From Armatimonadota bacterium (GTDB taxonomy: Bacteria > Armatimonadota > Zipacnadia > UBA1398 > JAKPQA01), in NCBI GenBank assembly GCA_029547025.1, contig JAKPQA010000302.1:1-59186 (forward strand): DNA of 59,186 nucleotides. The letters are read 5' to 3'. Shown in pieces: positions 786 through 41,621 of the stretch (positions are counted from its first letter, which is position 1; every line of letters starts with the position of its first letter). The notes under the pieces were generated by a model. That model saw only the letters and a list, made by a program, of their open reading frames with translations. It had not been told where the DNA came from and did no database searches. Made by a program: the position numbers and the translations under genes.

Positions 786-823
786 TGGTAGGTTTGAGCG
801 CTTTGTCCTTTCGGGGGTTCAGA

Positions 824-13796: not shown

Positions 13797-15173
13797 TCAG
13801 TACCAGGGATGGAGCCCGGCACCGACGGCGACCGCCATGATCGGCGCAATGTCTGCCAGGTACTCCTCGTCGTAGCCCGCACCGGGATCGATGGCGACGG
13901 AAGCAAATGGGTCACCGATCTCGGTGGGGATGCCCAGTTCCATCTCAACAAACGTGGCGATGTTCTTGACCCGGGCGGACCCACCGATGAGGATCACACG
14001 CTCGACATCGATGTCATCGTGCCGGGAGCGATAGTACTCGACCGAGCGCCGGATTTCGGCCGCGAGCTCGGCGACCACGGGTTTGATCGCGTCCGAGACC
14101 TGTTGCCGCGTCACATCCGGATCCTGCCCGTCGACGGCGGCGGCCTCGGCGCCCAGGTCGCCCATCTCAATCTGATCGACGCCCGTCAGCGTGGGCTCGT
14201 CGGCCATGTCGGGCTCGCCGAAGATCGGTCCGTCGACGGTGTCAACGAAGGCCGGCGCGGCGGCGTCCGGGCCGAAGACGGGTCCCTCGGCGGTGTCGAT
14301 CATGGTGCTGCCTGTGGGCCGGATGGGCTGCCGCCCGCCCACCTCGGGCTCCGTATCCAGGCTCCGGATGGCCATGTCGCGGACATCGCCCCAGTCCTCG
14401 GGTTGGGGTCGGGCGCCGCCGGAGTCGAGGGTAACGATGGCCCAATCGTGCTTGAGCTGCTGGGCCTCGTCCGACTCGACGATGAAAGCCTGGCCCAGAG
14501 CGCTGGTCAGCGTATCGCCGGCCAAGGGCAGGCCTCGGTTGAAGCGGAGCCAGTCGTTCTGGATGATGCTGATATCGGTGAGCTCAGCGCCAATGTTGAC
14601 GATGGCGGTGCAGCGCTCCTTGGCCACGTGGGCGGGGGCACTGACGAGAGCGCGGCCGGCCGCGAAGGGCTGAGCGTCGATGGCGGCGGGCTCGAGCTTG
14701 GCGGCGTTGAGGATCCGTAGATACTTCTCGCAGTTCTCGTCCTTGAGAACGGTGATGGTGACTTCCATGTTGGGGCTGGTGGGATCGGCGTCAGGCCCCT
14801 GGTAGATCGAATAGCTGATGGATTCCTTTGCCTGCTCGCGCGGGAAAGGAAGGTGGCGCTCGAGGTCCCACTTCATGGCGTTGCGCAGCTCGTTGAGCGT
14901 CATTCGTGGGACTTCGGTGACGCGGATGACCATGTCGGCCTGGCCGCCCACCGAGATGACGGCCTTCTTGGCGCTAAACCCGTTGCTGCGGAGCATGTCG
15001 GTCAGCGCGGCACTGACGGCGTCGGGGTCGATGACGACGCCGTTGGCGATGGTACCCGGCGGCGTCTCCTTGACGGCCGCCCGGGTCAGCACGGTCCCTT
15101 CGCGGCCGGCGACGAGTTCGACGGCCTTCATGTAGTGGGATCCCAGGTCAATGCCGATGATCGCGTTTGCCAT
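13797..15173 (-). CDS. pilM: PilM-like actin-fold ATPase
   Basis: A 458-aa cytoplasmic protein of the FtsA/PilM actin-like family. The phosphate-1 loop is IGIDLGSHYMKAVEL (6-20), the phosphate-2 region CTAIVNIGAELTDISII, and the late adenosine loop VILIGGSARVKNIATF. It binds the PilN INLLP tail and links the inner-membrane ring to the motor. Longer than typical PilM (about 350 aa): an acidic insert at roughly 265-345 carries two imperfect copies of DTAEGPVFGPD / DTVDGPIFGEPD. Start ATG with a weak GGGTG site. First gene of pilMNOPQ. The 248-base leader (15174-15421) contains no clear promoter, so it may be read from the genes upstream. Confidence 0.92.
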   Translation of the reverse strand: MANAIIGIDLGSHYMKAVELVAGREGTVLTRAAVKETPPGTIANGVVIDPDAVSAALTDMLRSNGFSAKKAVISVGGQADMVIRVTEVPRMTLNELRNAMKWDLERHLPFPREQAKESISYSIYQGPDADPTSPNMEVTITVLKDENCEKYLRILNAAKLEPAAIDAQPFAAGRALVSAPAHVAKERCTAIVNIGAELTDISIIQNDWLRFNRGLPLAGDTLTSALGQAFIVESDEAQQLKHDWAIVTLDSGGARPQPEDWGDVRDMAIRSLDTEPEVGGRQPIRPTGSTMIDTAEGPVFGPDAAAPAFVDTVDGPIFGEPDMADEPTLTGVDQIEMGDLGAEAAAVDGQDPDVTRQQVSDAIKPVVAELAAEIRRSVEYYRSRHDDIDVERVILIGGSARVKNIATFVEMELGIPTEIGDPFASVAIDPGAGYDEEYLADIAPIMAVAVGAGLHPWY

Positions 15174-20947: not shown

Positions 20948-21035
20948 GGCTCTCGTACCTCCATCACCCTCACAGGCCCGGTCCGCCGTTCGCGGGCCGG
21001 ATCTGTCACAACGGATCCACATTCAGTCTGGCGCC

Positions 21036-24000: not shown

Positions 24001-26948
24001 TTGGTCCGGAATCCGGTGGGGCTGCCCAGCGGCACGGCGAGGTCGTTGACATCCAGTTCGAGCGCAACGGCTCCACCGATGGTGTCGCCACTGCCGGGCG
24101 GGTACTCGGCCGTGAAGGACACAACGGCCGCGCCCTCACCGCAGGCGGGGAAGCCGGTCACTCCGACGGGGGAGTCCTCGGGATCCCAGCCGGCATAGGG
24201 GATGCGGAAGCGATACATGACCCGGTCGACGCCTCGAGTGGCATCCCACGTGGTCGTGGGGTCGAACACCAGCGGGCCTGATCCTCCGACGACGCCAGAC
24301 GCAGGGAAGCCCTGGTCGCGCATGGCCAGCACCATGCCATCCGCCGGACTGGCGGGATCGCGGGCCAGGGGGAGCACGATGACGTTCTCGGGCGACAGCG
24401 CGGGGCCTGAGCCCGGTGATGGTGGGTCGGTGAGCATGAAGCCGGTACCCGGCAGACCGTTATAGATCCACTTCTCGGTGCCGATCTCCATCGGGTTGCC
24501 GCCGCCGCTGGGGCGGATGAACTCGGTGTAGTAGTCGATGGAGACCTTGTCCCCTGCCTCCGGCGGCCAGTTCAGCGCGGCGGGGTAGTTGGCGGGCCGG
24601 TTTGCCGCGTCCGCGACGAAGACGCCGATGACGTGTTGCCCCGCGGGTGCCGTCGGACCGATGGTGCCATCGGTGAACACGAATTGCCAGTCGTTGGTGC
24701 TGGCACCGGGCCCGGGAACCGGGACATCGTTGAACCGCACCGTGAAGGCGAGGTTCGGGTCGAGGGCACAGAACCCGCCCTGGAACCCCGCCCGGCGGTA
24801 CCCGCGCATCAGATACAGGTTCCCGCGGGTGGCCGCCGGCGGCGTCCAGTCCTCGATCACCCGCAGCCGCTCATCCCACACGCGCATGACGTGGGCGCGG
24901 AGCACGCCCACCGATGTGGCCGTGTTCCCGGTCTGCGTGGCGCCAAAGACATAGACCGTCTCATCCATGGCCGTGCCGTTGTTGGGGTCGGGCACGATGC
25001 CGACCACGGCGGGACTGGTGAGGTTCGTGACCACCGTGTCGTCATCGTCGGCCGGCAGGTGCGCCTGGCCCGCGCGCGTGGGCCCGCCGTCGGGCACGTT
25101 GAGGACGAATAGCGCGCCGTCGGAGCTGTCGGTCCCAGCCGTGGTGACATAGGCGACTCCGCGAGCCACGGTGATGCCGGTCACCCAGCCCACGTTGCCC
25201 AGGCCGGCCGGGGGCAAGCTGGCCAGATTGATGGGATTGTTCCCGCCCCATCCCGGGAACTCCAGGCCGGTCACGCCGTCTGCCGACGAGGGGGTGATGA
25301 TGCCGTTGGCGTCGCGGGGCAGCGCCGTAAGTGCCCCGAGCTCGCCGCGCTTCGTGCCCACGAGCACCACATCGGCATGGGTTGCCGTGGTCCCCGAGGT
25401 GAGAGCCACATGCGTGACCGTGACCGGGCAGCTCACCCCGTCCTGGACCCGCCAGACCCAGAGGGCGTCCAGTTCGGGGAAGGCGAGGTTGGTGTAACCG
25501 GCTGCCTGCAGGTCGGCCCACTTGGCGCCATCGTCGGGGTTGAGGTCGCCGTCCATGTCCCGGGCCGGGTCGGCATCGAGGGCCACCAGGACGTCGCCGT
25601 TGCCGCTTGGGTGCGGGAAGACACAAAAAACGGCGCCGCTGGCCAGCACCGGGCTGGGGGCCTGGATGGGCCCGGTGGTCGTGGGATTGACGGCGGCGCC
25701 GATGGTCTCGACGTGTTCGGTGATGAGGTCGAGCCGTTCCGAGATGGTCTCGCGGGCGGCGCTGGTGCGACGCGCGTTCTGGCTGGCCGCACCCCATTCG
25801 TCGGCCCAGTTGACGGCATTGAAGATGAAGTACTGGTCGCCCCGGTAGCGAGACATGCTGAGATTGCTCAGGTCGTCGCCGCAGTAGATGCCCGAGTTGA
25901 TGCCACTGGCGGTGTCGTACGACCGGCCGCCGGTAACGGCGTCGTTGAGCTTACACGACACGTCGCCCGCCACGGCGATAACGGTGCCGGCCCCGTATCG
26001 TCCTGCGGCCACGTAACCGCCGCCGTAGGGCGGGTTGGCCGTCGCGTCGGAGTAGGCGCTGTTCAGGATTACCGGGAACAGCGCGGTCCCGTCGTAGGGG
26101 CTGATGCGGTAGCTCCCGATGTACTTGTCGCCCAAATTGTTGGCCTCGAAGAGCCCCATCCAGAACGGGTAGGACATCAGTGGGTGCAACCGGTCCGGGA
26201 TGATGGCGCGGCCGGTGGCACCCTCGTGGTCGAACTGGAGGGGCGCGAAGAAGCCCTCGGAGGCAAACGGCGTCAGCACGGGATCGCGGTTCGTGAAGAT
26301 GGGGTCCGCGGGGTCCACGGCGGCGGGGTCATTGGCGTCCGGATTGGTGGCCACGCCGTAGTTGGCGCTCAGGACACCGCCGCGGTCGGTCGCCCGCCCG
26401 ACACGGAGCCCCCAGCAGTCATCGATCCATACCTGGCCGCCGGCGTCTACGAGCTGGCGCAGCATGCGCCGGTCCGAGTCCGTGAACGCGGTCATGCGGT
26501 GGTTGGCGATCAGGAGCATGTCGAACCGGGCGAGTTCGGGCAGGTTGGCCTCGTTGAGCACGACTTCCCAATAGGGCCCCATGTTCTTGGTGATGGGCTG
26601 TCCGAGCTGGAGGGAGCCGACCCACGGGTCGCCGCGGACCTGCCAGCGGTCAATGATGTCCTGTGTGACCACCGGAGGCGCCAGCGGGTTGACGAAGTCC
26701 CAGTGGGCTGGCTTGAGGGGCGACTGGTCCAGGATGTACCAGACGTGCGGGTCCGGGTTCTCGAGGTTCGTCGGCCCAGGGGGCCGCGCGTTGTCGTAGC
26801 GCGCCGACGAGACGAGGAGATTCGCGACCTTGATCTGCCGGGTGCGCGACGTGAAGTTGGTCACCTGGCCCCAGGCGCCGGCGTTGAGCCCCACGCAGGT
26901 CAGCATGGTCAGAGCCACCCACGCCGGATAGGGCATCCTGTGCTTCAT
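21036..26948 (-). CDS. Giant exported protein, 1970 aa, Rossmann-like N-domain plus beta-propeller repeats
   Basis: Signal peptide MKHRMPYPAWVALTMLTCVG...AWG. The first 400 residues resemble a glutamine-amidotransferase-like (ThuA/DUF4159-type) fold: FDMLLIANHRMTAF, then RRMLRQLVDAGGQVWIDD, with no catalytic triad evident. The middle (about 430-700) reads like a PQQ/BamB-type propeller (FVLNVPDGGP, VYVFGATQTG). Near 1400-1650 there are NHL-like blades (YLVADSGNDRVIELRKDG, FVADTGNFRIIAVEQL). Calcium-type loops include DMDGDLNPDD and DLDGDGTPDTG. It sits between the K-like pseudopilin and the 1841-aa protein, in one transcription unit. Domain parsing is by eye; function unknown. Confidence 0.85.
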   Translation of the reverse strand: MKHRMPYPAWVALTMLTCVGLNAGAWGQVTNFTSRTRQIKVANLLVSSARYDNARPPGPTNLENPDPHVWYILDQSPLKPAHWDFVNPLAPPVVTQDIIDRWQVRGDPWVGSLQLGQPITKNMGPYWEVVLNEANLPELARFDMLLIANHRMTAFTDSDRRMLRQLVDAGGQVWIDDCWGLRVGRATDRGGVLSANYGVATNPDANDPAAVDPADPIFTNRDPVLTPFASEGFFAPLQFDHEGATGRAIIPDRLHPLMSYPFWMGLFEANNLGDKYIGSYRISPYDGTALFPVILNSAYSDATANPPYGGGYVAAGRYGAGTVIAVAGDVSCKLNDAVTGGRSYDTASGINSGIYCGDDLSNLSMSRYRGDQYFIFNAVNWADEWGAASQNARRTSAARETISERLDLITEHVETIGAAVNPTTTGPIQAPSPVLASGAVFCVFPHPSGNGDVLVALDADPARDMDGDLNPDDGAKWADLQAAGYTNLAFPELDALWVWRVQDGVSCPVTVTHVALTSGTTATHADVVLVGTKRGELGALTALPRDANGIITPSSADGVTGLEFPGWGGNNPINLASLPPAGLGNVGWVTGITVARGVAYVTTAGTDSSDGALFVLNVPDGGPTRAGQAHLPADDDDTVVTNLTSPAVVGIVPDPNNGTAMDETVYVFGATQTGNTATSVGVLRAHVMRVWDERLRVIEDWTPPAATRGNLYLMRGYRRAGFQGGFCALDPNLAFTVRFNDVPVPGPGASTNDWQFVFTDGTIGPTAPAGQHVIGVFVADAANRPANYPAALNWPPEAGDKVSIDYYTEFIRPSGGGNPMEIGTEKWIYNGLPGTGFMLTDPPSPGSGPALSPENVIVLPLARDPASPADGMVLAMRDQGFPASGVVGGSGPLVFDPTTTWDATRGVDRVMYRFRIPYAGWDPEDSPVGVTGFPACGEGAAVVSFTAEYPPGSGDTIGGAVALELDVNDLAVPLGSPTGFRTNTALTVDAGDPVAPPSGPLRGSWPVRVFDALNGTEILAMGGANWSVDTKRNAIRFSELHAGRRVLIQWIDTTTEDDPTPAGTDMWRVYQGYFQVPRIVRWQYPALTKRASGPITRPSYSGGQIADADDVDDPLEFDTNDADNNPGIVPFDIDFETGIVSFTIDALGASDTTSGIPGDIEPVRDADMDGVSADPSPDYVVSAIGSPTISSDKAIVPVTYSHAPDPLTNTRSEALLVFAMDPRDSVYYDEANEPWPGASVPWDTTLSPPWPSYRYIDDGEANGWVSYWTNQVGALGQPHNPSYDLLSVVNGLTSGEGIASTQAVVGRGRIYTVSVAPRAAAANQWNWFYRVYEAGTSGLVIGDLNRVLSVDAAGSPSWEVASARYLYVSDPTGNAADIVSLPVRISRPQSVLALDYAGKPNNYLVADSGNDRVIELRKDGVADWMLQNRWDPNHLGSGQGAEAAFRDTPDYAPPDGGPAYPNLPPGASHQIREPHDAYRWAWYDYSGPEPVLREWTFVADTGNFRIIAVEQLTNEDGDRLPPLDESGGEAIYAYDQTQAVIDPTAAGEEVLPVDLDGDGTPDTGAQGQLKTAGKYEFITVKPLMNPGLFGGPDNPMGFSGVLAAVANYALSTSPIVQPVDVGGQNRTPDPPDPNVPASYDGPHGFPHPYPRELGPGASVVKIGRADPEAPDGSMPDGRIDWAFSTIYRWDQASGTLAPYGKLDRIYHIQGRLDPGYMGTDQAAYFIEICASLSRMDGPVPIKEDGLYPVTYFPAVGPETGTYSMTAAGTNVEGYAILGLPPGSLGGPADLAHGGLSLNQWGVDATLAAGDPVYYPWRFTGEQYAVALRELYAQDNGLLPYTGRPASPYAAFRAVHVEYQPGGGYLIVNGHEDKGEVLVVVPPSVNAATPTNRLRLILPRPEKYGTTNAAAQLWAARDQVDLWPPAPGSAASDRSADERRKRPWIGPAAVEGRPATYRLTQPLAATTGSHY

Positions 26949-27057: not shown

Positions 27058-30000
27058 CTATCCCGCGGGCGGAACCACACTGCCTGTGTAGATCAGGTCG
27101 TCGCTGACCGGAAGGCGCGGGAACCGCGGGAGGTAGTCCCGGGTTCGCACACGGCCATCCGGAGCGGTGTAGGTGTAGAACAGTCTCCGACCCGAGCGCA
27201 GGCCGGGATCGTAGACGTACCGGATCATTCCCCAGTTGGGCGTGCCGGGAGCCGCCCACGGGCCGCTCTGTTCCTTCACGCGATGCTCCGTATCCCACCA
27301 GGACCACTTGTCGCACCAGGCGGCCACGGAGAGGATGTCGGGCATGGTGCTGGGCGCAATCGCACCATTGACGGTCAACCGCATGTTGTAGCGGCGCGAC
27401 TCGATCCAGTCTTCCTGACCACTGAAGTCGAGATCGACATCCGACGGATCCATGACCCCGTCGCCGTTGACATCCTGCTGGGCCCCGGAGGGTGGATAGA
27501 CGTACTCGGCGATGACGCCGTCGCCGTTGCGGTCGATGGCCGCGGCCGATGGGTCGAAGTGGTCGCCCGGTATCACGAAGTAGGTGCCGTTCTGGGCGTA
27601 CATCAGGGCGCTCACGATGGCGTCCATGGGGTAGACCTCGCCCCCGTGGACCAGGCCACTCACCTGCAGCTCCAGGCTCTCGGGCACGGCTGGGTCGTCC
27701 GGTATGGCGTCGATGGGCACGGCGTCCCCGACCCGGGGCTCGATACAGAAGGAGTACAGCTCCAGGGGCTCGCGGAGCGTGGTCGCGGCAGCGATACGGA
27801 AGATGTTGGACTGCCCCACGGCGTCGTCGAAGGGCACGTAGTCGGTTCCCCCGACCCGCAGGGGAATCCGGATGATCTGCACCGCGCCGCTCAGGTACCG
27901 GAAGGGCTGCGGGCCCGTGGCGGCGGGATTCCGGTCGAAGTCATAGGGCGTGTTGTTCACGAACAGGCTGAAAGCGGCTCCCGGCGTCCCCTTCACACGG
28001 AGCTTGAGGAAGATGTCGGCGTTCTCGGCCGTGGAGTCAGCTCGATCATCCCCGTTCCAGTCGTCCACCGCGGTGAAGGAGAACGCTCCCGTGAGCTGAT
28101 CGCCGGCCCGCAGCTCCCAGTGCGAGCGTCCCAGCACGCCCCGCTGGTTTGGGACGATGGGGGCGTTGGTCTGCACCAAGGGCATTAGAACGCGTGTTCC
28201 GTTCACGACCACGCTCTCGCCCGCGAGGAGGGCAATGCGGCTGTTGAGCGCGAGCCCGCGCGCGGTGTCATACTCGCCGAGTGCCGGATCGCGATCGGAC
28301 GGCCGGAGGAGGTTGCCCTCGACGTAGACGTTCCCTTCGGCGATCAGCGTGATGTTGTACTCCCAGTCGGGCCGCAGATCGGGATTGCCGGGTGTGGCGA
28401 GCCGTCCGCTGACCCGCGCGTTGCCGGCCACGTAGATGACGCCATCGCGCGGGTAGTCAATGTAGGCCGTGGTGTCCATGGTACCGTCGCCATCGGCATC
28501 GAGCGGCGCCGTCTGGTCGGGCGTCAGCAGGTCGAACCTGCCGGTGGCCGAGTTCCACGGGATGCGGAAGAACTGAGTGCGGCCTGTGGGATCGGGATGC
28601 AGGCGGACCATGATGTCGGGCACTGCCGGATCATTGCCGAGCGGACCGGCCGACGGGTCTGTGGAGCACCCCAGAGAAGCGGGGGTGTTTGCATCGGCAT
28701 CCAAGAAGATGATCTCGGCGCCCGGCGGCATGTACAGAGGTCCGTACCAGGTGCTGGCATTGGCACCGGCCCCGGTGCGGAGCCACTCCTCTTTCATGGC
28801 CTCGACGTCGGGATTCTGGCGGTCGGTTGGATTGTTGATGAACAAGCTGGTGCCGAAGCCGAGTTGCGCCGTGTTCAGCCGCTGGCCGGCCGGCGCCGGA
28901 TCGGGGTCGCCCGCCACGGGAGCGCCGGTGACATCGAACCACACGCCCGACTCCATGGCGGCCTTCCGCAGGACGCCGTCGCCGTCGCCGTTCGTGCGAT
29001 CGAGCCGGGGCGCGGCCACCCGAATCGCCGCGCGCCCCACCATATGAGGCAAGGGGTAGATGAACCCCAAGTCGTCCATGTACAGCGGCCCAAAGGGGTC
29101 GAAGAAGTAGAACGGGTTGAACAGCGGGTTTGCGATGCCCGGTGCCGAGTACGAGACCTCAGCAACCCCAAGAGCAGCTCCATTGAACCAGAGTTGCGGC
29201 AGCGACATGGCGCCGCCCGGAGGGGCGTTGCGCGTGATGGGACCGGCGATCTGCACGCGCTCTCCGAGCCCCAGGCGTCCTCCCAGGGCCGGGTTGGGCG
29301 CCACCCTTGGGCTGACGGTGGGCTGCTGGTCGAGACGGATCTCCATGGGAACGGGGTTGCTCACGTCGGGCGGGCTCGCCCCGCCGTAGAAGTCCACGCC
29401 CGTGTTCGCGAAGATGCCGCCGTACATGGGCTCGGTTGCGATCTCGTCGGCGCTATCGAGCCCGCCCGAACCGTCGAGGTCGCTGACGTACCCGTTGCCG
29501 TTCAGATCGACCATGGTCGGGGTACCGATGGCCTGTGAGGCGCCAGTGCGGGCTGCGTCGTGGGCCGTGATCAACTGGTCGGTGATGAGGATGGGCAAAT
29601 AGCCCACCGAGAGGCGGTAGACGCCTTCGTTGCCGGGCACGGTGCCCACGGCGACGACGCGGATGTAGTTGGCCATCGGATTGCCACTGAACATCGGCAG
29701 CGGCTGGGCGGCGCCGGCCGCGTTCAGGTAGTCGCTGGGAACATACTCAACCTTGAGCATGGCGCGGCCGCGAAGCGCATCGGCCGTCGGGTCACCGGTG
29801 GGAAGCGGAGCCCCAGCAGTCTGGTCGCCCACTTCAAGTGGCGCCTGGATCTTGACAAAGCCCTCTTCGTGCAGGCCCCGTTCGATCTCGGACTCGCGAT
29901 AGTACGCCAGCACCGAAGGACCGGGCGGTGGAGCCCCCAGATCGTTGGTGTCGAAGGGGTCGTCTGCCGCCCAGTTCGCCAGCCGCAGGTCGGCGCCCAT

Positions 30001-30198
30001 GGGGCTGGTCAGCATCATACGCTGGAACAGGCTGATAGCTCCGTCGGCGCTCTGCTGAGCGGTCAGCACATCGCCCGTGCGCGTGGTGGTGCTCATGGTG
30101 TGGCTGATGACCGCCACGAAGGCGGCGCCCAGGATGGCCATCAGCATGAGCAGTAGCACGGCCAGGACCAAGACCTGACCGGACTCATGCCGGCGCAT
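27058..30198 (-). CDS. Very large GspK/PilX-like pseudopilin
   Basis: About 1046 aa. The N-terminus RRHESGQ followed by the hydrophobic VLVLAVLLLMLMAILGAAFVAVI is the GspK/PilX type: a Gly before the cleavage site and no Glu at +5, then a Ser/Thr-rich helix continuing the pilin stalk. GspK is normally about 325 aa. The enlarged ectodomain carries dockerin-like calcium loops: DLNGNGYVSDLDGSGGLD (near 229), DADGDGTMDTT, DRNGDGVIAEY and DVNGDGVMDPSD (near 908). The start could be ATG at 30198 (GAGGTG 9 bases upstream) or GTG at 30210 (GGGAGG 8 bases upstream). Fifth in the prepilin series, just before the giant proteins. Likely tip of the pseudopilus. Confidence 0.83.
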   Translation of the reverse strand: MRRHESGQVLVLAVLLLMLMAILGAAFVAVISHTMSTTTRTGDVLTAQQSADGAISLFQRMMLTSPMGADLRLANWAADDPFDTNDLGAPPPGPSVLAYYRESEIERGLHEEGFVKIQAPLEVGDQTAGAPLPTGDPTADALRGRAMLKVEYVPSDYLNAAGAAQPLPMFSGNPMANYIRVVAVGTVPGNEGVYRLSVGYLPILITDQLITAHDAARTGASQAIGTPTMVDLNGNGYVSDLDGSGGLDSADEIATEPMYGGIFANTGVDFYGGASPPDVSNPVPMEIRLDQQPTVSPRVAPNPALGGRLGLGERVQIAGPITRNAPPGGAMSLPQLWFNGAALGVAEVSYSAPGIANPLFNPFYFFDPFGPLYMDDLGFIYPLPHMVGRAAIRVAAPRLDRTNGDGDGVLRKAAMESGVWFDVTGAPVAGDPDPAPAGQRLNTAQLGFGTSLFINNPTDRQNPDVEAMKEEWLRTGAGANASTWYGPLYMPPGAEIIFLDADANTPASLGCSTDPSAGPLGNDPAVPDIMVRLHPDPTGRTQFFRIPWNSATGRFDLLTPDQTAPLDADGDGTMDTTAYIDYPRDGVIYVAGNARVSGRLATPGNPDLRPDWEYNITLIAEGNVYVEGNLLRPSDRDPALGEYDTARGLALNSRIALLAGESVVVNGTRVLMPLVQTNAPIVPNQRGVLGRSHWELRAGDQLTGAFSFTAVDDWNGDDRADSTAENADIFLKLRVKGTPGAAFSLFVNNTPYDFDRNPAATGPQPFRYLSGAVQIIRIPLRVGGTDYVPFDDAVGQSNIFRIAAATTLREPLELYSFCIEPRVGDAVPIDAIPDDPAVPESLELQVSGLVHGGEVYPMDAIVSALMYAQNGTYFVIPGDHFDPSAAAIDRNGDGVIAEYVYPPSGAQQDVNGDGVMDPSDVDLDFSGQEDWIESRRYNMRLTVNGAIAPSTMPDILSVAAWCDKWSWWDTEHRVKEQSGPWAAPGTPNWGMIRYVYDPGLRSGRRLFYTYTAPDGRVRTRDYLPRFPRLPVSDDLIYTGSVVPPAG

Positions 30199-30262
30199 TA
30201 CTCTGCGCACCTCACTCGCCTCCCTGCCGCACTTGCCCATGTCGCCGCCCCCACTCCCGTGC

Positions 30263-32278
30263 CTACCGCGGCGAGTTCGACACGCTCAGCTCGCGCCGTA
30301 CGGTGAGCACCTGGGGTTGTCCAGGCTTCCCCGCGTCGTAGACCGCCAAGGTGACCTGCACATCGTTGCGCATCCGGGTCGCATATGTGATGGTGATATC
30401 GTCGCTCTGCGCATAGACCCGGTTGATGTCAGCGAGCGCCATCCCCGCATAGGCCTCCCGCGGCGTGCCCGAACTATCGCGGTAGAACCATCGGAAGTTG
30501 TCGCGGTACTGATACTCGACCACGATCCGCACCAGGCGCGTATCCGGTGGGGACTGCTTATTGAACTCGATGACTCCTGTGATGTCGTTGATCCGGTACT
30601 GGTAGGCGCCCGGTTCGCCGGCGGTGCGTACCATGGTGACCTCGCGAGCGGGATCGTCCAGCGAGAGCAGGCGGACACGCTCGGAGCCCTCAACGACCTT
30701 GTACCGCCGCGGAACGATCACGCCTGGGTCGGGCACCCCGCCGCCCTGGTCGATGGGCTCGAACAACGAGTTGTTGAACGGCCAGACTGCGGGGTCGCGG
30801 TCAAATGTGACCTGGTACTGCACATTGCGCGGCTGCGATGGGTCGAAGGGCGCCAAGCGCCCGATGACCCGGGTCCCGTCGAACTCGGCCGCATCCACGG
30901 TCGAGCGGGCGAACTGCACCGTGCCCGCCACCGTGTTCACCTGAGGCATCAGGCGCAGGTAGTACGGCGGCGGCGTGCCCCCACCACTGACGCGCGATGC
31001 CATCTGGATGATCTTCTCGTTCAAGATGGGCGGGTTCTGGATCTCGCGTGAGTCGGCGAAGTAGAGCAGGCTCAGGTTGTCCCACGGGTCGGCGGGGTCA
31101 TCGGTGGTATCGGTGGCACGGTCGCCGTAGTTCATCAGGTTGATGACCCACGCGGGTGGCGGGTCGTCGGCGTACGTGCCCGGATCATCCGGTCCAGGCA
31201 CCGGGTCCAACATCTGCGTCAGCCACATGCCGTACGACGCCTTGTAGGATGTGGTGTCCCTGGGCGCCTCTGGGGTCGAAGGCCGGTCGGGTTTCGCCGC
31301 GTCGTCGGTGACTGCCTCGGGGACGATAGCCAGGCCGGGCAGCACACCGGGCAGCTCGCCCGTGCCGGTGCCCCACCACTGGGGCTCGTGACGTTCCTCG
31401 CTCGGGTTCCACGCGTACAGCCCGCAATCGGCGTTGCTGGTGGGGGTCAGCGGCTCGGCCAGGTCACGGAACACCGTGCCCAGAGGGCGACTGGATCCGC
31501 CCCAGGTTACCGGCGTGCTATTCATGTAGAAGTAGGGTCCAAATACACTGGTGGGGTAAGCCGCATCATTGGGGTTGGTGACATAGAGGGCCCCATAGAG
31601 GCCCGGATCGTTGAAGGGCGGCTCCCCGAGGTCGAACTCGACACGGTAGAGGACCGCCATGTTCGCGGTGGCCGGATCGGCCAAAGGCCCCATGAGGTTG
31701 GTTCCCGGCAGGGCGATGTATGGGTTCATATAGCCGGTGCGGACCTCCTCGGCCGCATCGGCCCCCCACATGGGTCCCGCAGGTTGGTTGGGCAGCGGGG
31801 CCACGAAGTAGCGGACCACCCTGCCTGTGGGGGTGCCGCCGCCGAAGGGCAACGCGAAGGTTCCTGACGGCCTCACCACGCCGGCAGGACCGGCCGGCGT
31901 CAGATAGAGATCGAGGCGGGAGAGCACGGTGGAGTCGTGACCCTCTGGCAAGTCGGCATCAGTGGTGTCGGGGTCCCAGTCGACCGGAGTGGGGATGACG
32001 AGCTGGGCCTCGGAGATGTCCCGTTCGAGCCGCATCATGACGTTGCCGAGCCGGTCCTGGGCCACGGAGGCCATATTGGTCCGTTCGAGGACCTGGACCG
32101 TCTGGAACATGGGGATGAACAGCAGGCCCATCAGCACGGCCAGGATGACCAGGACCACCAGCATCTCGACCAGGGTGAACCCGGCCCGATGCGTCGAGAC
32201 GGCCCGCGCCGGAAGGGCCAGCCGAGCGCCAAGGCGGCTGTGAAGGATGCCCCACACTGTCTCGCTCAGAACCTTCAC
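30263..32278 (-). CDS. Very large GspJ/PilW-like pseudopilin
   Basis: About 671 aa. Prepilin cleavage motif RAG^FTLVEML (Gly33, Phe34, Glu38 at +5), followed by a hydrophobic helix and LERDISEAQ, typical of GspJ/PilW. The GTG start at 32278 has GGAGGAG about 9 bases upstream. The resulting 33-residue leader is long for a prepilin; a later start is possible but none has a better site. The ectodomain (about 600 aa against about 170 in GspJ) is beta-rich. Near its end is a module TGVIEF followed by VRIVVEYQYRD, echoed in neighbouring proteins. Follows the 276-aa pseudopilin after 94 bases and precedes the K-like gene. Confidence 0.85.
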   Translation of the reverse strand: MKVLSETVWGILHSRLGARLALPARAVSTHRAGFTLVEMLVVLVILAVLMGLLFIPMFQTVQVLERTNMASVAQDRLGNVMMRLERDISEAQLVIPTPVDWDPDTTDADLPEGHDSTVLSRLDLYLTPAGPAGVVRPSGTFALPFGGGTPTGRVVRYFVAPLPNQPAGPMWGADAAEEVRTGYMNPYIALPGTNLMGPLADPATANMAVLYRVEFDLGEPPFNDPGLYGALYVTNPNDAAYPTSVFGPYFYMNSTPVTWGGSSRPLGTVFRDLAEPLTPTSNADCGLYAWNPSEERHEPQWWGTGTGELPGVLPGLAIVPEAVTDDAAKPDRPSTPEAPRDTTSYKASYGMWLTQMLDPVPGPDDPGTYADDPPPAWVINLMNYGDRATDTTDDPADPWDNLSLLYFADSREIQNPPILNEKIIQMASRVSGGGTPPPYYLRLMPQVNTVAGTVQFARSTVDAAEFDGTRVIGRLAPFDPSQPRNVQYQVTFDRDPAVWPFNNSLFEPIDQGGGVPDPGVIVPRRYKVVEGSERVRLLSLDDPAREVTMVRTAGEPGAYQYRINDITGVIEFNKQSPPDTRLVRIVVEYQYRDNFRWFYRDSSGTPREAYAGMALADINRVYAQSDDITITYATRMRNDVQVTLAVYDAGKPGQPQVLTVRRELSVSNSPR

Positions 32279-32372
32279 GGTTGTCGTCTCCTCCAGCCCA
32301 GGGCTGGCCACTCGTCCCGGTTCATGATTACCCGAGCCGGGCCTCGGCCAAACGGCCAGTGCATGCGCGCCA

Positions 32373-33203
32373 TTACCACCAGTCGGCCTCGTTCCGGGGA
32401 AACAGCCATGCCGGGTTCCCCGCGACAACCCAGTCGACGAACCGGTCTTTGACCTCGACACTGCCATTCTTGAACAACACCAGAGTGCGTTCGCGCCGGT
32501 TCTCGCTGGTGTTATCCACCCGATGGTGTGGGCACCACAGGAGGATGGCGTCGCCACTGGGCGAGTAGCGCTGAAGGCCCGGGCACGAGGCATCACCTGT
32601 CACGGGATCGGGTACGGCAAGCCGCGCATCCCAAAGCTGCCTGCGGTATCCCGGGCCGCTCGTGACGGTCGGATCCCGTAGAGGCATGTACTGCCACGAG
32701 GCGGCCTCGCGGTCGTAGTTCTGGTAGCTGCAGTAGTACCAGCTATCGTACCAGTCACGGTAGCTCCGAATGTTGTGTCCACCCGCCGAGTCGTCGATAT
32801 CGACATCGTTGCCGCTGGTGTCCTGCGCCTGCACCTCATAGCACGAGGGGCAGTGGAGGGCGGTCACCGAGTGCAGGTGGCCCGTAGCAGCGAGGATCCA
32901 CAGGCCCGTGCGGTGCGCGGGCTCCCCCCCAGACCAGGTGGGCACATTGTACGCGTCCAGTGTGGGGGTCTCCTCGGCGAACCGCTGGGCTTCGTCGAGG
33001 TCGAAGGGCGGGTATCCCAGCTCATCGGCCTGGTACATCCCGAGGGCCGTGTGGATCATCCGCAACTGGCTCAAGCACTTGAACTGCTCGTGGCTGGAGG
33101 TCAGGTTCTTCACGCTGGCAAAGGTGATGCCGGCCAGCAGGGCCACGATGGCCATGACGACCAGCAGCTCCACCAGCGTCATCCCCGAATGACGGCGATC
33201 CAT
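32373..33203 (-). CDS. Prepilin-like protein (GspG/GspH type)
   Basis: 276 aa with a short leader MDRRHSG^MTLVELLVVM (cleavage after Gly7, Glu12 at +5) and a hydrophobic stalk helix. The post-helix stretch CLSQLRMIHTALGMYQADEL is the conserved pseudopilin helix of the G family. The C-terminus has CPHHR followed by LVLFKNGSVEVK, matching the end of the 232-aa pilin (CPFHR, LVLRLDGSVKAI), so the two share a fold. Start ATG 33203 with GAGGTGG 6 bases upstream. Exported through the inner membrane and processed by the PilD at 36067-36933. Confidence 0.88.
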   Translation of the reverse strand: MDRRHSGMTLVELLVVMAIVALLAGITFASVKNLTSSHEQFKCLSQLRMIHTALGMYQADELGYPPFDLDEAQRFAEETPTLDAYNVPTWSGGEPAHRTGLWILAATGHLHSVTALHCPSCYEVQAQDTSGNDVDIDDSAGGHNIRSYRDWYDSWYYCSYQNYDREAASWQYMPLRDPTVTSGPGYRRQLWDARLAVPDPVTGDASCPGLQRYSPSGDAILLWCPHHRVDNTSENRRERTLVLFKNGSVEVKDRFVDWVVAGNPAWLFPRNEADWW

Positions 33204-33253
33204 GGGTCCCACCTCACTCCAACCGCCCGCGCCAAGACCACGGGTAACGGGGT

Positions 33254-34954
33254 TCACGAGCGGATTGCGAAGCCGTCCACGTCCGCGCACTTGCGCGCAC
33301 CGTTCTCTTCCCAGCACGTCCGCGCTTTGCACGAGATCCCCCGAACGGCGCGGATGCCCTGGCGCGGGTCCGTGGGGTCGAACTCGTGCTTGAGCTCCAC
33401 TTTGTGGCTCCCCACGCCGATCACATGGGTCTCGCCATAGACCCAGCGAATGGCTCCCGTCTCGTCCGCATAGGCATAGTCCACGGCGATGGTGTGCCCG
33501 CCTGCGTCCTGCATGCCTCCCTCGGTATCGGGGGCCGGGTCGGTGGCATTGACACTGAAGAACTGCAGCACCGCCGGCGAACCGAGGATGGTCTCGTCGT
33601 TGAAATACCAGAACTGCTTGATACCGGTCGGGCCGGCCACCGGGTCGATGTAGAGGCGGCCCGATGCGCTGGCCATGCGGGCGAAGCTCTCGGGCGCTAG
33701 ATGCAGCTCCCGCGCCCAGCCGCCCTGGGCCCGGTAGTAGATCCGGACGGGGATGGGGAGCGGCGGCAGCGATGAGTCAAACTCGATACTGCCCCCGACG
33801 TAGTCCACGTCGGTGATCCCCGATCCCGGGGTGAATACCTGGCCATCGGCCTTGCTGACCGCGATAACCGGCTCCGGGATGTGGGTGTAACCGGCGCCAT
33901 CCACCAAACCCTCATCGCTCACGACGAACCCCGTCGGCAGCTTGACCGTCCGCGTGTCCGTCGCCGGGATCAGTGCGTCGACGTAGAGGATGTCGGGAAT
34001 GTCGAAGTCCATGATCAGTGAGTCGGGCTCGCGTGGGTCGGTGATGGAGTTCTCGAACCCGGTTCGTCGGTGCGATTGGATCTCGTAGGTCATGGCCAGG
34101 AGCGAACCCACTTCGGCCTCCTGGCTCGTCAGACGCACAATGCCGAGGGAGCGATCGCTGGCGGAGACATTCTGGTCGATGATGGCGCCACCGACCTCGC
34201 GGTACACGGTCAGCGAGTTCGGGACCATATCGCGCCCGGCGGACCACTGCAGCGTACCATCCGTCCCGGGCGCTGCCGTGAAGGCCTGCCCGATGACATC
34301 AACGAGACTGCCACTGTCCAGATAGGTGTAGCACGCGCGGAAGTTGGACACGGCCACTTCGGGCGACTGCGGGAAGGCGATGGTCCCGGTTGCCCAATCG
34401 GTGACCACATACCGAAACGGTCCCTGCGTCGACCAGAGGTCGTTTAGGGTGCCGACCATGGGCACGGGCGTGGGATGGTAGACCCAGGCGGACTCGGGAC
34501 GCACGGGGCCGTACCGCGCCAGATGGGCGACGCTTGCGGCATTGGCGACGGGCACGCGGAACCGCTCACCGACCACCAGTGTAGGAAAGACGAGCGACCG
34601 GGCTCCCGCCGCCTGGCTCGCGAGATGGCTGAACTGGTACACGTCGGTCATGCTGACATCGTGGACCAGGGCATAGCCCTGGGTCAGGTCGGAGGCATCG
34701 ATCGCGATCGCATGGCACACGGCATCGGGCCGCAGCTCAGGCTGGGTGCGCAGCGTCTCGATCATCTGCGACGCCAACTGGGACGCCGCCAGTCGCGTTC
34801 CCTGGCTCGGCATGATGGCCAGGCCGGGGATCAAGACGCGAACGATGGCGAACATGCCCACGGCCAGGATCACCATGGCGACGAGGATCTCCACCAGGCT
34901 CATGCCCGGTGCCGATCGCATGCCCGGTACCGTCTTTCGGCCGCCGACTCCCAT
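33254..34954 (-). CDS. Large GspI/PilV-like pseudopilin
   Basis: 566 aa. After a 17-residue leader, PG^MSLVEILVAMVILAVGMF is the GspI/PilV type N-terminus (Glu at +5, Met-rich start). GspI is usually about 125 aa. The extended beta-rich ectodomain contains at least two copies of a strand pattern in which a Gly-Ser-Ile-Glu-Phe or Gly-Ile-Val-Arg-Leu strand is followed by VRIYYRA or AMTYEI. Two Cys pairs near the C-terminus (CKARTC, then RKC) could form disulfides. ATG 34954 has GGAGGA upstream. Second in the G-I-G-J-K order. Confidence 0.85.
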   Translation of the reverse strand: MGVGGRKTVPGMRSAPGMSLVEILVAMVILAVGMFAIVRVLIPGLAIMPSQGTRLAASQLASQMIETLRTQPELRPDAVCHAIAIDASDLTQGYALVHDVSMTDVYQFSHLASQAAGARSLVFPTLVVGERFRVPVANAASVAHLARYGPVRPESAWVYHPTPVPMVGTLNDLWSTQGPFRYVVTDWATGTIAFPQSPEVAVSNFRACYTYLDSGSLVDVIGQAFTAAPGTDGTLQWSAGRDMVPNSLTVYREVGGAIIDQNVSASDRSLGIVRLTSQEAEVGSLLAMTYEIQSHRRTGFENSITDPREPDSLIMDFDIPDILYVDALIPATDTRTVKLPTGFVVSDEGLVDGAGYTHIPEPVIAVSKADGQVFTPGSGITDVDYVGGSIEFDSSLPPLPIPVRIYYRAQGGWARELHLAPESFARMASASGRLYIDPVAGPTGIKQFWYFNDETILGSPAVLQFFSVNATDPAPDTEGGMQDAGGHTIAVDYAYADETGAIRWVYGETHVIGVGSHKVELKHEFDPTDPRQGIRAVRGISCKARTCWEENGARKCADVDGFAIRS

Positions 34955-35045
34955 TGCTCTCACCGTCCTCCGGCACCCACATCCCACCGGCTCGGTCCGC
35001 AAAGCGCACTCGGCCAAGCGCCCCTCGACGCTCGCCCCGGCCCCA

Positions 35046-35744
35046 CTACTCGGCGGGCTGGGTGGGCCACTTCCCCTCAGCTTCCCACCGAGTCACATCG
35101 TTGGCTTCGTCCTGCATGGCTCTGGGGATGGCCTTGACACTGCCATCCAGGCGCAGGACCAGCTCGGTGTCACCCATACGATGGAAAGGACAGTGGGTGA
35201 TGATGGTGGTCTTGGGCGCCTGGGAGTTGACGAGGAAGGGAAACTCGGTCCACTTCCGTACCGGTGCAGGCACGGGGCCGCCAGACTGAGCGACATCGTA
35301 GTAGAGCGATCGGGGGGCCTCGTAGCCCTCGGGCGTATAGCCCCAGAAGTTGTAGAGCAGCCGGTCTTGGATGTTGGCCGGCACATTGGGGTTGCGCCCT
35401 TCGAAGTCGTAGGCGTAGCTGAAGGCGACGCCGTCGACGAAGTCAGAGGCCGACCGTTCATCTTCCTTGCAGACCATCGGCAGGCTCAGATTGGTCTTCG
35501 TCAGCGCGACCAATCCACCGTAGGGGTTGTAGTTCGCGCCGTCCCACGGCGAGGGCGGGTAGGCGTGGTGGTCCTGGTAGTACTGCCCAAGGGCCACAGC
35601 GATCTGATGGAGATTCGCCGTGCAGGCCCGTTTGGCGCCTTCGGCCATGACCTTGTTGTAGACGGGGAACAGGAAGGCCGCCAGTATGGCGATGATGACG
35701 ATGACCACCAACAGCTCGATGAGCGTGAATCCGCGCATTCTCAT
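35046..35744 (-). CDS. Prepilin/major pseudopilin candidate (GspG/PilA-like)
   Basis: 232 aa, the most typical pilin of the set: leader MRMRG^FTLIELLVVIVIIAILAAF with Glu at +5 and no insertions. The downstream stalk RACTANLHQIAVALGQYYQDH and the YPPSPWDG loop match G-type pseudopilins of Armatimonadota/Planctomycetes style. The C-terminus carries CPFHR and LVLRLDGSV. The start ATG 35744 has GAGGAGG 6 bases upstream, the best ribosome site in the cluster, in line with high expression. First pilin gene after pilD, following a hairpin-containing gap. Candidate for the main filament subunit. Confidence 0.9.
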   Translation of the reverse strand: MRMRGFTLIELLVVIVIIAILAAFLFPVYNKVMAEGAKRACTANLHQIAVALGQYYQDHHAYPPSPWDGANYNPYGGLVALTKTNLSLPMVCKEDERSASDFVDGVAFSYAYDFEGRNPNVPANIQDRLLYNFWGYTPEGYEAPRSLYYDVAQSGGPVPAPVRKWTEFPFLVNSQAPKTTIITHCPFHRMGDTELVLRLDGSVKAIPRAMQDEANDVTRWEAEGKWPTQPAE

Positions 35745-36066: not shown

Positions 36067-36933
36067 TCAGACGGGGGGCGGGGGGAACAGATAGCCTCTG
36101 ACGGCGTTCGCGATGACGTCACCCCAAAGGATCATCACGGCCAGAGAGACGGCCAGGAATGGCCCGAATGGGATGACGGTGTCCTCTCGCTCCTTGCGGT
36201 GCCAGAGCATCCAGGTGCCACCGATGAGGGCCCCGGCAAAGGCGGCGATGACGATGTAGAGGACGAGCTCGATGCCGGGACCGAGGAACGCCCCCGCAGC
36301 ACCAGTGAGATAGATATCACCAAAGCCCATGGTCTCCTTGCGGAATGCCAGGTCGGCCAGGAACACGAACACGCGCAACCCGATCAGCCCGACCAGGGCG
36401 CCGATCACCGAACGAGGGAGGGCCACAGCGAACTGGCCGCCGGCGGTGGTGACAGGGAACAGCACCATCATCTCGTGTGCCCCGACGGCCAGGCCGTAGA
36501 TGTCGTAGCCGACTCCGGCGACGAGGATGGCAATCCAAAGTGGATGAGGGATGAGGGTGGTCTGCCAGTCGATTACGAATAAGGCGATGAGCGAGGCGAA
36601 GCAGATCCACAGCGCAACGAGCAGCACCGGGCGGCCGGGCCCACAGTAGAAGAACAGGCCCAGAAAGACGAGGCCGGTGATCAGCTCGATCGCCATGTAC
36701 CGGTAGCTGAACCGGGCCCCACAGAAGCGGCAGCGGCTGCGGAGGAGTAGCTGGCTGAGGACGGGGATGAGGTCGCGCGCCAGTATCTCCTTGCCACAGG
36801 ACGTGCAGTGGGAGCGCCCACCCAGGCTCTCGTCCTCGGGCAGGCGGCAGATGGCGACATTCAGGAAGCTCCCGACGCACAGGCCCAGGAGGCCAGAGAA
36901 GGTGGCGAAGACAGCGTAGAGCTGGGGTTCCAT
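36067..36933 (-). CDS. pilD: Prepilin peptidase (leader peptidase / N-methyltransferase)
   Basis: 288 aa, polytopic inner-membrane aspartyl protease that cleaves and methylates prepilins. The N-terminus GLCVGSFLNVAICRLP is diagnostic. The cytoplasmic zinc-binding cysteines are C43, C46, C68 and C71 (CTSC, CRFC). Catalytic aspartates are D122 (IDWQTTLIP) and D206 in GFGD. About eight hydrophobic segments. I chose ATG 36933 because it gives the standard N-terminus, although no good ribosome site precedes it; a GTG about 30 bases upstream is an alternative. It lies between pilC and the prepilin genes it serves. Confidence 0.94.
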   Translation of the reverse strand: MEPQLYAVFATFSGLLGLCVGSFLNVAICRLPEDESLGGRSHCTSCGKEILARDLIPVLSQLLLRSRCRFCGARFSYRYMAIELITGLVFLGLFFYCGPGRPVLLVALWICFASLIALFVIDWQTTLIPHPLWIAILVAGVGYDIYGLAVGAHEMMVLFPVTTAGGQFAVALPRSVIGALVGLIGLRVFVFLADLAFRKETMGFGDIYLTGAAGAFLGPGIELVLYIVIAAFAGALIGGTWMLWHRKEREDTVIPFGPFLAVSLAVMILWGDVIANAVRGYLFPPPPV

Positions 36934-36983
36934 GGCCACGGCGCGCCGTTCGGGCGCGATCACCCCACTCCCTGGCGCATACA

Positions 36984-37013
36984 ACACGGGGCGAGGAGGT
37001 CCTCGCCCCGTGT
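36984..37013 (-). terminator. Strong hairpin between pilC and pilD
   Basis: A perfect 14-bp inverted repeat (ACACGGGGCGAGGA / TCCTCGCCCCGTGT) separated by only two bases. No T-run follows. It could attenuate transcription or protect the upstream message, lowering PilD relative to PilC. Confidence 0.5.
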
Positions 37014-37054: not shown

Positions 37055-38296
37055 CTACTCGTTCTGGGAAGACAGGCTGTTGATGATCTCAACCAGCGGC
37101 ATGAACATGGCGACGACGATGAATCCAACGACGCCACCGAGGAAAACGATCAACATCGGCTCGATGGCGGCCGTCAGGGAAGCCAGGGCCGTGTCGACCT
37201 CGGACTCGTAGAACTCCGACACCTTAGCCAGCATGGCGTCGAGCGAGCCGGTCTCCTCGCCGATGGAGATCATCTGAACCACCATGGGCGGGAACATGCC
37301 GGAGTTACGCAGGGGCGTGCCGATCTCCTCGCCCTCGCGGACGCTGGCGCGCGCGTCGAGCACGGCCTCGGCGATGATCTCGTTGCCGACAGTGCCGGCC
37401 ACGGTCTCCATGGCCTGGAGGATGGGCACACCACTGCTGAGCAGGGTGGAGAGCGTGGAGGCGAAGCGCGATAGTGCAACTTTGTGGATCAGCTTGCCAA
37501 AGACGGGCAGCTTGAGCTTAACCAGGTCGATGTAGCGGCGCCCAACCTTGGTTCGGCCGAGAAACTTGAGGGCGATGAAGATGATGATGCCCCCAGCCAG
37601 GGCGTAGTACCAGTAGTGGACGAGGAAGTCGCTGGCATCGCGGAGGATGAGGGTCATCTTCGGCATCTTGTCGCGGCCGATGCCGAGTTCGTCGAACAGG
37701 GCCATGAACTTGGGCAGGATGAAGGTCATGAGGAAGAGCACGATGCCGACCGCCGCGATCATAACGATCGTGGGGTAGGTCATGGCGGACTTGACCTTCC
37801 GGCGAAGTTCGAGGTCCTTTTCGAGGAAGACGGCGAGCTTGTTGAGCGTCTCGTCGAGCACGCCGCCGACCTCGCCCGCGCGGACCAGACCGATGGCCAG
37901 GTTCGAGAAGGTTCGAGAGTACTTGGCCATGGCCCCGGACAGCGAGTTACCCCCCTCGACCTCAGCGCGAATGTCGGCGATCATGGCCCTTAGGTTGGGG
38001 TTGGTGGTCTGCTCCTGAAGAACCGAGAGGCAGCGGACCACGGTCACGCCGGCGTTGATCATGGTGGCGAACTGCCGGCAGAACTGGGCCAAGTCGTTGA
38101 GCTTGACGCGCTTGAAGCGCGACATGCCACGTCCCCGGCCTTTGACCACGCCGGTGCCCTTGGTCTTCTGGATCGACGAGACCACATAGCCCTGGTCGAC
38201 CAGGTTAGTGCGCAACGCTTGCTCGCTGTCGGCCTCGATGGTTCCCGTGAACTCGGCACCGCGCGCGTCGCGTACCCGGTACTGGAACACCGCCAT
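37055..38296 (-). CDS. pilC: PilC/GspF-type inner-membrane platform protein
   Basis: 413 aa. Two tandem T2SSF domains, each with the helical motif (LAQFCRQFATMINAGV and LSRFASTLSTLLSSGVP), and three transmembrane segments (IVMIAAVGIVLFLMTFILP, YALAGGIIIFIALKF, and the C-terminal MLIVFLGGVVGFIVVAMF). It couples the PilB/PilT motors to pilin insertion and removal. The start ATG at 38296 gives MAVFQYRVRDARG, the usual family opening. Encoded between pilT and pilD. Confidence 0.95.
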   Translation of the reverse strand: MAVFQYRVRDARGAEFTGTIEADSEQALRTNLVDQGYVVSSIQKTKGTGVVKGRGRGMSRFKRVKLNDLAQFCRQFATMINAGVTVVRCLSVLQEQTTNPNLRAMIADIRAEVEGGNSLSGAMAKYSRTFSNLAIGLVRAGEVGGVLDETLNKLAVFLEKDLELRRKVKSAMTYPTIVMIAAVGIVLFLMTFILPKFMALFDELGIGRDKMPKMTLILRDASDFLVHYWYYALAGGIIIFIALKFLGRTKVGRRYIDLVKLKLPVFGKLIHKVALSRFASTLSTLLSSGVPILQAMETVAGTVGNEIIAEAVLDARASVREGEEIGTPLRNSGMFPPMVVQMISIGEETGSLDAMLAKVSEFYESEVDTALASLTAAIEPMLIVFLGGVVGFIVVAMFMPLVEIINSLSSQNE

Positions 38297-38438
38297 CAGA
38301 CCCACCCCCGCTATGCCGCCCGCGGCCACCCACCGGTGGTCCGCCGGTCGCCACGAAGCGGCTCCTGTACTGACTGTCTACCACCCCAGATGATCCGGCG
38401 CCACCCGGGGTTGGGAGAATGGGCGCCGAACACTCGGC

Positions 38439-39575
38439 CTAGTAGGGCGCGTTGCCGGTGTTCAGCATCTTCTTGAGCTCCTCGGGGTTGACCGAACGCT
38501 CCATGGCATCGTCATAGCTGATCATGCCGCGCTGGTAGAGGTCCCGCAGAGCCTGGTCCATGGTCTGCATGCCAATGTTGGTGCTGGTCTGGATGATGGA
38601 CAGCACCTGATGCGCTTTGGCCTCCCGGATGAGGTTCTTGATGGCCGCGTTGCAGATCATGATCTCGCAGGCAACGGCGCGGCCGCTGGTCCCGGCTCGA
38701 GGTAGCAGCTGCTGGGTGACGACCGCCACCAGGTTGTTGGAGAGCTGGACGCGGATCTGTTCCTGCTGGGCCGCCGGGAACACGTCGATGACTCGGTCGA
38801 CCGTGTCGGCGGCGCTGTTCGTGTGCACGGTGGCGAGCACCAGGTGGCCGGTCTCGGCTGCGGTGATTGCCAGCTGCATCGTGTCGAGGTCACGCATCTC
38901 CCCGACGAGGATGACATCGGGGTCCTCGCGCAGCGCTGCCCGGAGGGCGGCGGCGAATGTCAGGGTGTCCTGGCCCAGCTCGCGCTGGTTGATGATGCTC
39001 ATGCGATGGCCGTGGAGGTACTCGATGGGGTCCTCGATGGTGATGATGTGCTTGCTGGTTTCGCTGTTGATCTGGTTGATCATGGCGGCCAGAGTGGTGG
39101 ACTTCCCGCTGCCCGTAGGGCCGGTGACGAGCACGAGGCCGCGGGGCCGGCGCGCGATGGACTCGAGGATCATCGGCAGCCCGAGTTCGGGAAGGGTGGG
39201 CACTTTGGCCGGGATGAGACGGAAGGCGGCGGCCACGGTGCCGCGGTCGCGGTACACGTTGGTGCGGAACCGCGCGACCCGAGGGATCGAGTAGGAGAGG
39301 TCGAGCTGGAGCTCGGTCTCGAAGCGCTGGATCTGATCGTCGTTGAGGATGTCATAGATCATGCGCTGGGTGACGTTGGGCGTTAGCCGTTCGTAATTGG
39401 CCGTCCGCAGCGCGCCGTCCACCCGAAGGACGGGGGGGACCCCCACGCAGATGTGCAGGTCGGAGGCGTTCTTCTCCACCACCAGGTGGAGCAGCTCGTC
39501 CAGATGGATGTCGTGCACCGGCTTGGGCTGGCTCGGCCCGCGCGGGGGGGTCTGTTTGGCGCCAGACGTGCTCAT
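38439..39575 (-). CDS. pilT: Pilus retraction ATPase PilT
   Basis: 378-aa cytoplasmic hexameric ATPase. Walker A GPTGSGKSTT, Asp box IITIEDPIE, Walker B DVILVGEMRD, His box TGHLVLATVHTN, and the PilT-specific C-terminal AIKNLIREAKAHQ and GMQTMDQAL motifs. These distinguish it from extension ATPases and indicate retractile, type IVa-like filaments rather than a pure type II secretion system. ATG start with GAGGAG 8 bases upstream. Follows pilB by 115 bases. Confidence 0.95.
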   Translation of the reverse strand: MSTSGAKQTPPRGPSQPKPVHDIHLDELLHLVVEKNASDLHICVGVPPVLRVDGALRTANYERLTPNVTQRMIYDILNDDQIQRFETELQLDLSYSIPRVARFRTNVYRDRGTVAAAFRLIPAKVPTLPELGLPMILESIARRPRGLVLVTGPTGSGKSTTLAAMINQINSETSKHIITIEDPIEYLHGHRMSIINQRELGQDTLTFAAALRAALREDPDVILVGEMRDLDTMQLAITAAETGHLVLATVHTNSAADTVDRVIDVFPAAQQEQIRVQLSNNLVAVVTQQLLPRAGTSGRAVACEIMICNAAIKNLIREAKAHQVLSIIQTSTNIGMQTMDQALRDLYQRGMISYDDAMERSVNPEELKKMLNTGNAPY

Positions 39576-41460: not shown

Positions 41461-41621
41461 CCTGGGCACCTCCAGGTATACAGTTCAACGCGGACAGCAT
41501 CAGAGCTTCCGCGGGCGCATACGTGTTCAGCGGCGAGCACTTTCTGTGTCCGATGGGCGAACTCCTTGGACTGGATGCCCCAAATGGCAAGCGAGCAGCC
41601 TCGCGGCCGTGGGCAGGAGCG

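Follow-up and report, generated by a model that had tools for sequence, protein, structure and literature searches.

To which machine would minor prepilins of about 555, 670 and 1060 amino acids (aa) belong, and what could subunits of this size do in it? The question is raised by a contig of an Armatimonadota bacterium (Zipacnadia; JAKPQA010000302.1 of assembly GCA_029547025.1), whose 59,186 nucleotides were analysed as a whole and are called the window below. Its minus strand carries five prepilin-like genes, ordered G-I-G-J-K (35744-27058), which are adjoined by a prepilin peptidase gene; the start sites are uncertain. A preliminary description of this DNA had taken the five genes for a pseudopilus whose I-, J- and K-like tip subunits are greatly enlarged and form an elaborated head. 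We propose that they are a type IVa minor-pilin set, in which three tip-class subunits with large ectodomains would form an enlarged priming and tip-adhesion complex, and we put the probability of this reading at about 0.72.

Five prepilin-like genes and their sizes

The N_methyl domain (PF07963) was found above cut-off in G1, I, G2 and J. The gene order and the normal size of the two G-like proteins are as described earlier, within the uncertainty of the start sites:

35046..35744, minus strand: G1, normal-sized GspG/PilA-like prepilin (about 232 aa), with an N-terminal match to TIGR01710
33254..34921 (or with a start upstream of 34921), minus strand: I, minor pilin resembling PilV/GspI (about 555 aa; mature form about 549 aa), with an N-terminal match to TIGR02523 pilV (E 7e-11)
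about 32373..33203, minus strand: G2, normal-sized GspG-like prepilin (about 276 aa)
30263..32275, minus strand: J, minor pilin resembling PilW/GspJ (670 aa; mature form about 638 aa), with N-terminal matches to GspJ and ComGF models
27058..30240, minus strand: K, minor pilin of the PilX/GspK class (1060 aa; mature form about 1039 aa), with a leader, no Glu5 and a ComZ-like predicted ectodomain

The most plausible reading of I, J and K is that they are minor pilins of the PilV, PilW and PilX type, respectively. The NCBIfam models of the ordinary classes have 101-139 (GspI/PilV), 192 (GspJ) and 307 (GspK) positions; compared with these the mature proteins are enlarged about 4-5-fold (I), 3.3-fold (J) and 3.4-fold (K), which bears out the great enlargement noticed at first sight.

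A length survey in related genomes, suggested along with the preliminary description, gave for Armatimonadota loci median lengths of 610 aa for I (n=60), 621 aa for J (n=61) and 971 aa for K (n=65). Since the lengths are conserved across these loci, chance or mis-annotation of the large proteins is excluded. A search with the single K sequence found nothing; an alignment-based search recovered relatives, and the K profile found them in 202 of the 205 Armatimonadota genomes surveyed, all at least 90% complete. Relatives of I were present in 99 of 101 genomes of the phylum and relatives of J in 61 of 61, most of the latter being full length and several partial or reduced to the N-terminal helix. 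The order I-J-K on one strand was kept in 58 of 59 loci. As judged from these sequences the enlargement is phylum-wide and near-universal. The named loci include records of Fimbriimonadia, Chthonomonas, Zipacnadia/WS1 and Abditibacteriota; two records bear other names (Propionibacteriaceae UBA6122 and a Bacillota metagenome-assembled genome) and are provisionally taken as misassigned bins. Of 158 relatives the best 80 were retained in the scan, so that the set may also occur beyond the phylum.

The enlarged parts of I and J belong to no family that we could name. Among 53 relatives the J ectodomain showed in Pfam no curated extra domain beyond N_methyl and scattered weak matches, and a scan of the window's I protein likewise gave no extra curated domain. 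A profile search of PDB sequences with I, J and K returned nothing related beyond the pilin helix. The predicted model of I (predicted template modelling score, pTM, 0.80) consists of an N-terminal helix and several beta domains; compared with the PDB, its best match was a contractile-injection baseplate domain (Z 6.8, too low for use), with no pseudopilin among the matches listed. An ectodomain common to I and J was rejected, their profiles aligning over the first 60 residues only.

Type of machine encoded at the locus

On the minus strand the genes run PilB, PilT, PilC, prepilin peptidase, G1, I, G2, J, K, D1, D2, PilM, an unassigned gene, a PilO-like gene, two unassigned genes and secretin. 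The part past K, which the preliminary description had not listed, includes two secreted proteins of giant size (1970 and 1866 aa) and extends down to position 7333. Besides the prepilins the run comprises:

39691..41469, minus strand: PilB-type extension ATPase with an MshEN domain (TIGR02538 603 bits, cut-off 676; PF00437, PF05157)
38439..39575, minus strand: PilT-family retraction ATPase (TIGR01420 502 bits, above the cut-off of 319)
37055..38329, minus strand: PilC/GspF platform protein (PF00482 above cut-off; NF052607 PilC 433 bits, under its cut-off)
36067..36987, minus strand: prepilin peptidase PilD, A24 (PF06750 and PF01478 above cut-off)
21036..26948, minus strand: D1, giant protein predicted to be Sec-exported (1970 aa), with a DUF4159-like domain and PQQ/NHL beta-propeller repeats, PilY1-like by position
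15422..21022, minus strand: D2, second giant secreted protein (1866 aa), with no accepted family match
13797..15173, minus strand: PilM (TIGR01175 191 bits, above the cut-off of 133)
11401..12276, minus strand: PilO-like protein (PF04350 E 0.0016, weak and under cut-off)
7333..9339, minus strand: secretin of the PilQ/GspD type (PF00263 129.5 bits, cut-off 27.5; TIGR02515 PilQ and TIGR02517 GspD about equal, both under cut-off)

No gene of the window was picked out as PilN or PilP by any model. A type IVa pilus locus is characterized by a PilT-family ATPase and by pilins accompanied by PilM, secretin and prepilin peptidase, and all of these are present; the locus is therefore probably a type IVa pilus cluster (PilB, PilT, PilC, PilD, PilM, secretin), and pseudopilus is probably the wrong name for it. 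By best-hit comparison PilT relatives were found at 34 of 40 related loci and at 33 of 49 named loci.

The same genome contains on another contig (C42) a GspG (135 bits, cut-off 89) and a GspK of 486 aa (137 bits, cut-off 130), together with a GspH-like protein, a GspI-like protein of 196 aa, a GspJ-like protein of 349 aa, a PilM/GspL-like protein and secretins. By its family matches this set is a genuine type II secretion system (T2SS) and serves as an internal control for the enlarged pilus set. The GspI-GspJ-GspK trio of the T2SS has subunit classes and tip logic in common with I, J and K, but the genome's own copies measure 196, 349 and 486 aa, whereas the enlarged proteins are encoded together with PilT at a pilus locus. 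Because of PilT and PilM in the locus and of the separate T2SS elsewhere in the genome, we assign the enlarged I, J and K to a type IVa pilus, and a T2SS pseudopilus was ruled out as the leading explanation. Of the head proposed at first, the minor subunits with large ectodomains stand, joined by the tip-class signature and ComZ-like model of K described below; for the reasons just given, it is more likely the head of a retractable type IVa pilus than that of a pseudopilus.

The locus could also encode a second, T2SS-like machine that uses a large tip of I, J and K to push D1, D2 and further proteins out through the secretin. The secretin fits the models of GspD and PilQ about equally well, the same gene run encodes the large exported proteins D1 and D2, and a likeness of PilY1 itself to a T2SS substrate has been pointed out (PMC7541494). 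Against this stand the PilT-family ATPase and PilM in the locus and the genuine T2SS, with GspG and GspK above cut-off, elsewhere; we regard such a machine as quite improbable.

The K subunit and its predicted structure

K has a class III-like leader (RRHESG followed directly by QVLVLAVLLLMLMAILGAAF) and no match in Pfam or, at E values up to 1, in NCBIfam, the GspK model NF037980 included. Its class is indicated by the residue Glu5, which in the alignments is missing in 63 of 63 K relatives and kept in 55 of 55 relatives of I and 53 of 53 of J. PilX and GspK likewise do not have Glu5 and have been proposed to be uppermost, at the tip (PMC7541494). In a Pfam scan of 39 K relatives the ectodomain gave no known family beyond scattered weak matches.

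The structure of K was predicted from 63 sequences with a pTM of 0.82 and a mean predicted local distance difference test (pLDDT) of 69. The model begins with an N-terminal helix of 57 residues (22-78). When it was compared with the PDB, ComZ of Thermus thermophilus (PDB 6qvi) came out on top (Z 14.3; 272 residues aligned; root-mean-square deviation 4.7), the next matches having Z of about 8. The alignment with XcpX, a GspK, spans positions 58..1056 at Z 7.1, which is under the level safe by itself; the ComZ match lends support to the pilin fold predicted for K. Foldseek alone gave no match for K below E 0.001, and ComZ was not listed in the profile search of PDB sequences with K, an absence that is no proof of non-homology. 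Judging from the stretches covered by the ComZ and XcpX alignments, the K ectodomain may in the predicted structure be inserted within the pilin fold, as the beta-solenoid is in ComZ.

In ComZ a pilin fold like that of GspK carries a large ectodomain, a beta-solenoid (PMC6561018), as is predicted for K; its prepilin motif is weak, as is that of K, and the genes of both lie beside those of other pilins. ComZ is about half the size of K, and K has in addition the tentative jelly-roll segment nested in it, enlarged partners in I and J, and a giant secreted protein encoded beside it. Since ComZ, the solved structure closest to K, binds DNA (PMC6561018), the head could mainly serve to bind DNA in natural transformation, a role that has been proposed for ComZ, and ComEC is encoded in 61 of 61 genomes of the phylum. 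ComEC, however, has no discriminating value, being present in 10 of 14 control genomes as well; K, at about double the size of ComZ, does not match it in the PDB sequence search, and the conserved giant D and the enlarged I and J have no counterpart in the description of ComZ. A DNA receptor is in our view unlikely.

The segment that K would add to the ComZ-like part is:

27619..28191, minus strand: CBM6/CBM35-like jelly roll (tentative) nested in K, residues 684-874; Z about 8 with many CBM6/CBM35 chains

The match covers residues 684-872 of the model, with 100-110 residues aligned to each of the CBM6/CBM35 chains, and a segment of 160-286 aa is retained at this place family-wide. The PDB search gave it no sequence support. 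Because a middling Z can reflect a common arrangement, and because of this negative result, the predicted fold is only tentatively, as a borderline case, that of a carbohydrate-binding-type jelly roll.

It is hardly credible that the three proteins have no link to a filament and are common enzymes anchored in the membrane, or surface proteins. K matches no family, which would fit this view, but the order within the pilus genes is conserved phylum-wide, the proteins have prepilin leaders, the pattern of Glu5 and a pilin-like predicted fold, and no catalytic domain was found.

Giant secreted proteins and a candidate tip complex

In other bacteria PilV, PilW, PilX and PilY1 form a type IVa priming and tip complex, the minor pilins of which are encoded in a cluster with a Sec-exported beta-propeller protein and include a PilX-class subunit without Glu5 (PMC7541494). 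The locus in the window has the same layout. D1 is large, predicted to be Sec-exported, has beta-propeller repeats and is encoded directly after the PilX-class K, the position of PilY1 in other bacteria. The two differ in that the minor pilins of the known complex are small and in that D1, which carries NHL/PQQ repeats and a DUF4159-like domain at its N terminus, gives no match to the PilY1 domain model among the sequences scanned. The D relatives have an N-terminal hydrophobic signal in common; of 30 members 18 have the DUF4159-like domain, nine have NHL and eight PQQ_2 repeats, and none matches the PilY1 beta-propeller domain PF05567 at E 0.01. A scan of 61 genomes of the phylum for PF05567 found none, but 0 of 14 control genomes were positive either, so that a phylum-wide absence is not established. 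As the PilY1 model is unmatched, D1 resembles PilY1 in position and architecture only.

Relatives of the N-terminal region of D1 were found in 57 of 61 genomes of the phylum, and in 52 of the 57 loci with room for it K is followed by a frame of at least 1200 aa. In three loci (L113, L116 and L145) the frame after K appears to be split into two open reading frames or shortened, perhaps by frameshifts or assembly errors. D2 may be lineage-specific, since it matches no family and has no relative among 40 related loci. The profiles of I and J gave nothing significant against D. A short V-D...G-x-I-x-F motif occurs more often than in shuffled sequences among the relatives of I (40 versus 3.7) and J (25 versus 3.9); in I and J it coincides with the positions of weak, non-significant profile matches to D1.

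With the sequences, their order and conservation, the N-terminal signals and the predicted folds of K and I in hand, we infer how processing, complex formation, tip location, adhesion and ligand may be connected. The adjacent PilD would process I, J and K, and the PilV-like I, the PilW-like J and the PilX-like K would assemble through their N-terminal helices to a priming complex. In this complex K would be uppermost, since it does not have Glu5 and since its ectodomain would leave no room for another subunit on top. ComZ (PMC6561018) and the modular pilins (PMC8179133) have been argued on steric grounds to fit at the tip only, and the ectodomain of K is larger than those of either. K would hold the giant D1 at the filament end, as PilX has been modelled to hold PilY1 in Myxococcus. 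By analogy the complex would prime extension and act as an adhesive head while PilB extends the filament, and retraction by PilT would bring the head back. The likely ligand would be a surface or matrix polymer, possibly a polysaccharide.

Several findings count against the type IVa tip complex as proposed. PilB and PilC score under their equivalog cut-offs, for which reason the machinery is regarded as divergent. The identity of K as a pilin is based on leader, position and predicted fold, with no curated family behind it; the mean pLDDT of its model is 69, and about one quarter of the residues are below 50. Finally, 5 of the 57 loci have split or shorter frames rather than one large D after K.

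The modular pilins PilB and PilC of Streptococcus sanguinis carry a bulky module on a small pilin module and have been argued to cap the filament (PMC8179133). I and J, with their prepilin N termini, and the predicted models of K and I, with their large extra beta domains, have a similar layout. In S. sanguinis the grafts are recognised domains, which is also how the published census delimits modular pilins; here three pilins are enlarged together, their ectodomains belong to no curated family, and the enlargement is conserved throughout a phylum.

Modular minor pilins, ComZ and PilY1 tips are already known. We found no report of a phylum-wide enlarged set in the open papers searched, and one may have gone unseen. 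The main evolutionary survey of type IV filaments omitted the minor pilins, which align poorly (PMC6668835), and the enlargement could therefore be missed. Literature searches on carbohydrate-binding minor pilins and on Verru_Chthon, a prepilin cassette named in NCBIfam, gave no papers; the models C and D of the cassette match the pilin helix only, and we mention it as a lead for a parallel in another phylum.

Tentatively, and with somewhat less than even confidence, we suggest that the Armatimonadota share a distinct class of type IVa tip, in which three enlarged minor pilins and a DUF4159/propeller adhesin replacing PilY1 make up a polysaccharide-gripping head of about 4,100 residues that must pass the secretin pore or stay clear of it. 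If true, this would offer a natural series for studying the construction of pilus tips and the size of head that can pass a secretin, and a means of approaching surface attachment in a phylum that has been studied little.

Prepilins are numerous in these bacteria. The genome paper of Fimbriimonas ginsengisoli lists 79 PulG-like genes and links pili with attachment only generally and by inference (PMC4072686). In the genome of the window the prepilin N_methyl motif has 62 matches, mostly in dispersed GspG-like genes of 220-350 aa. On a further contig (C361, 15000-34900) three secretin genes lie close together and may belong to an additional secretion or pilus system.

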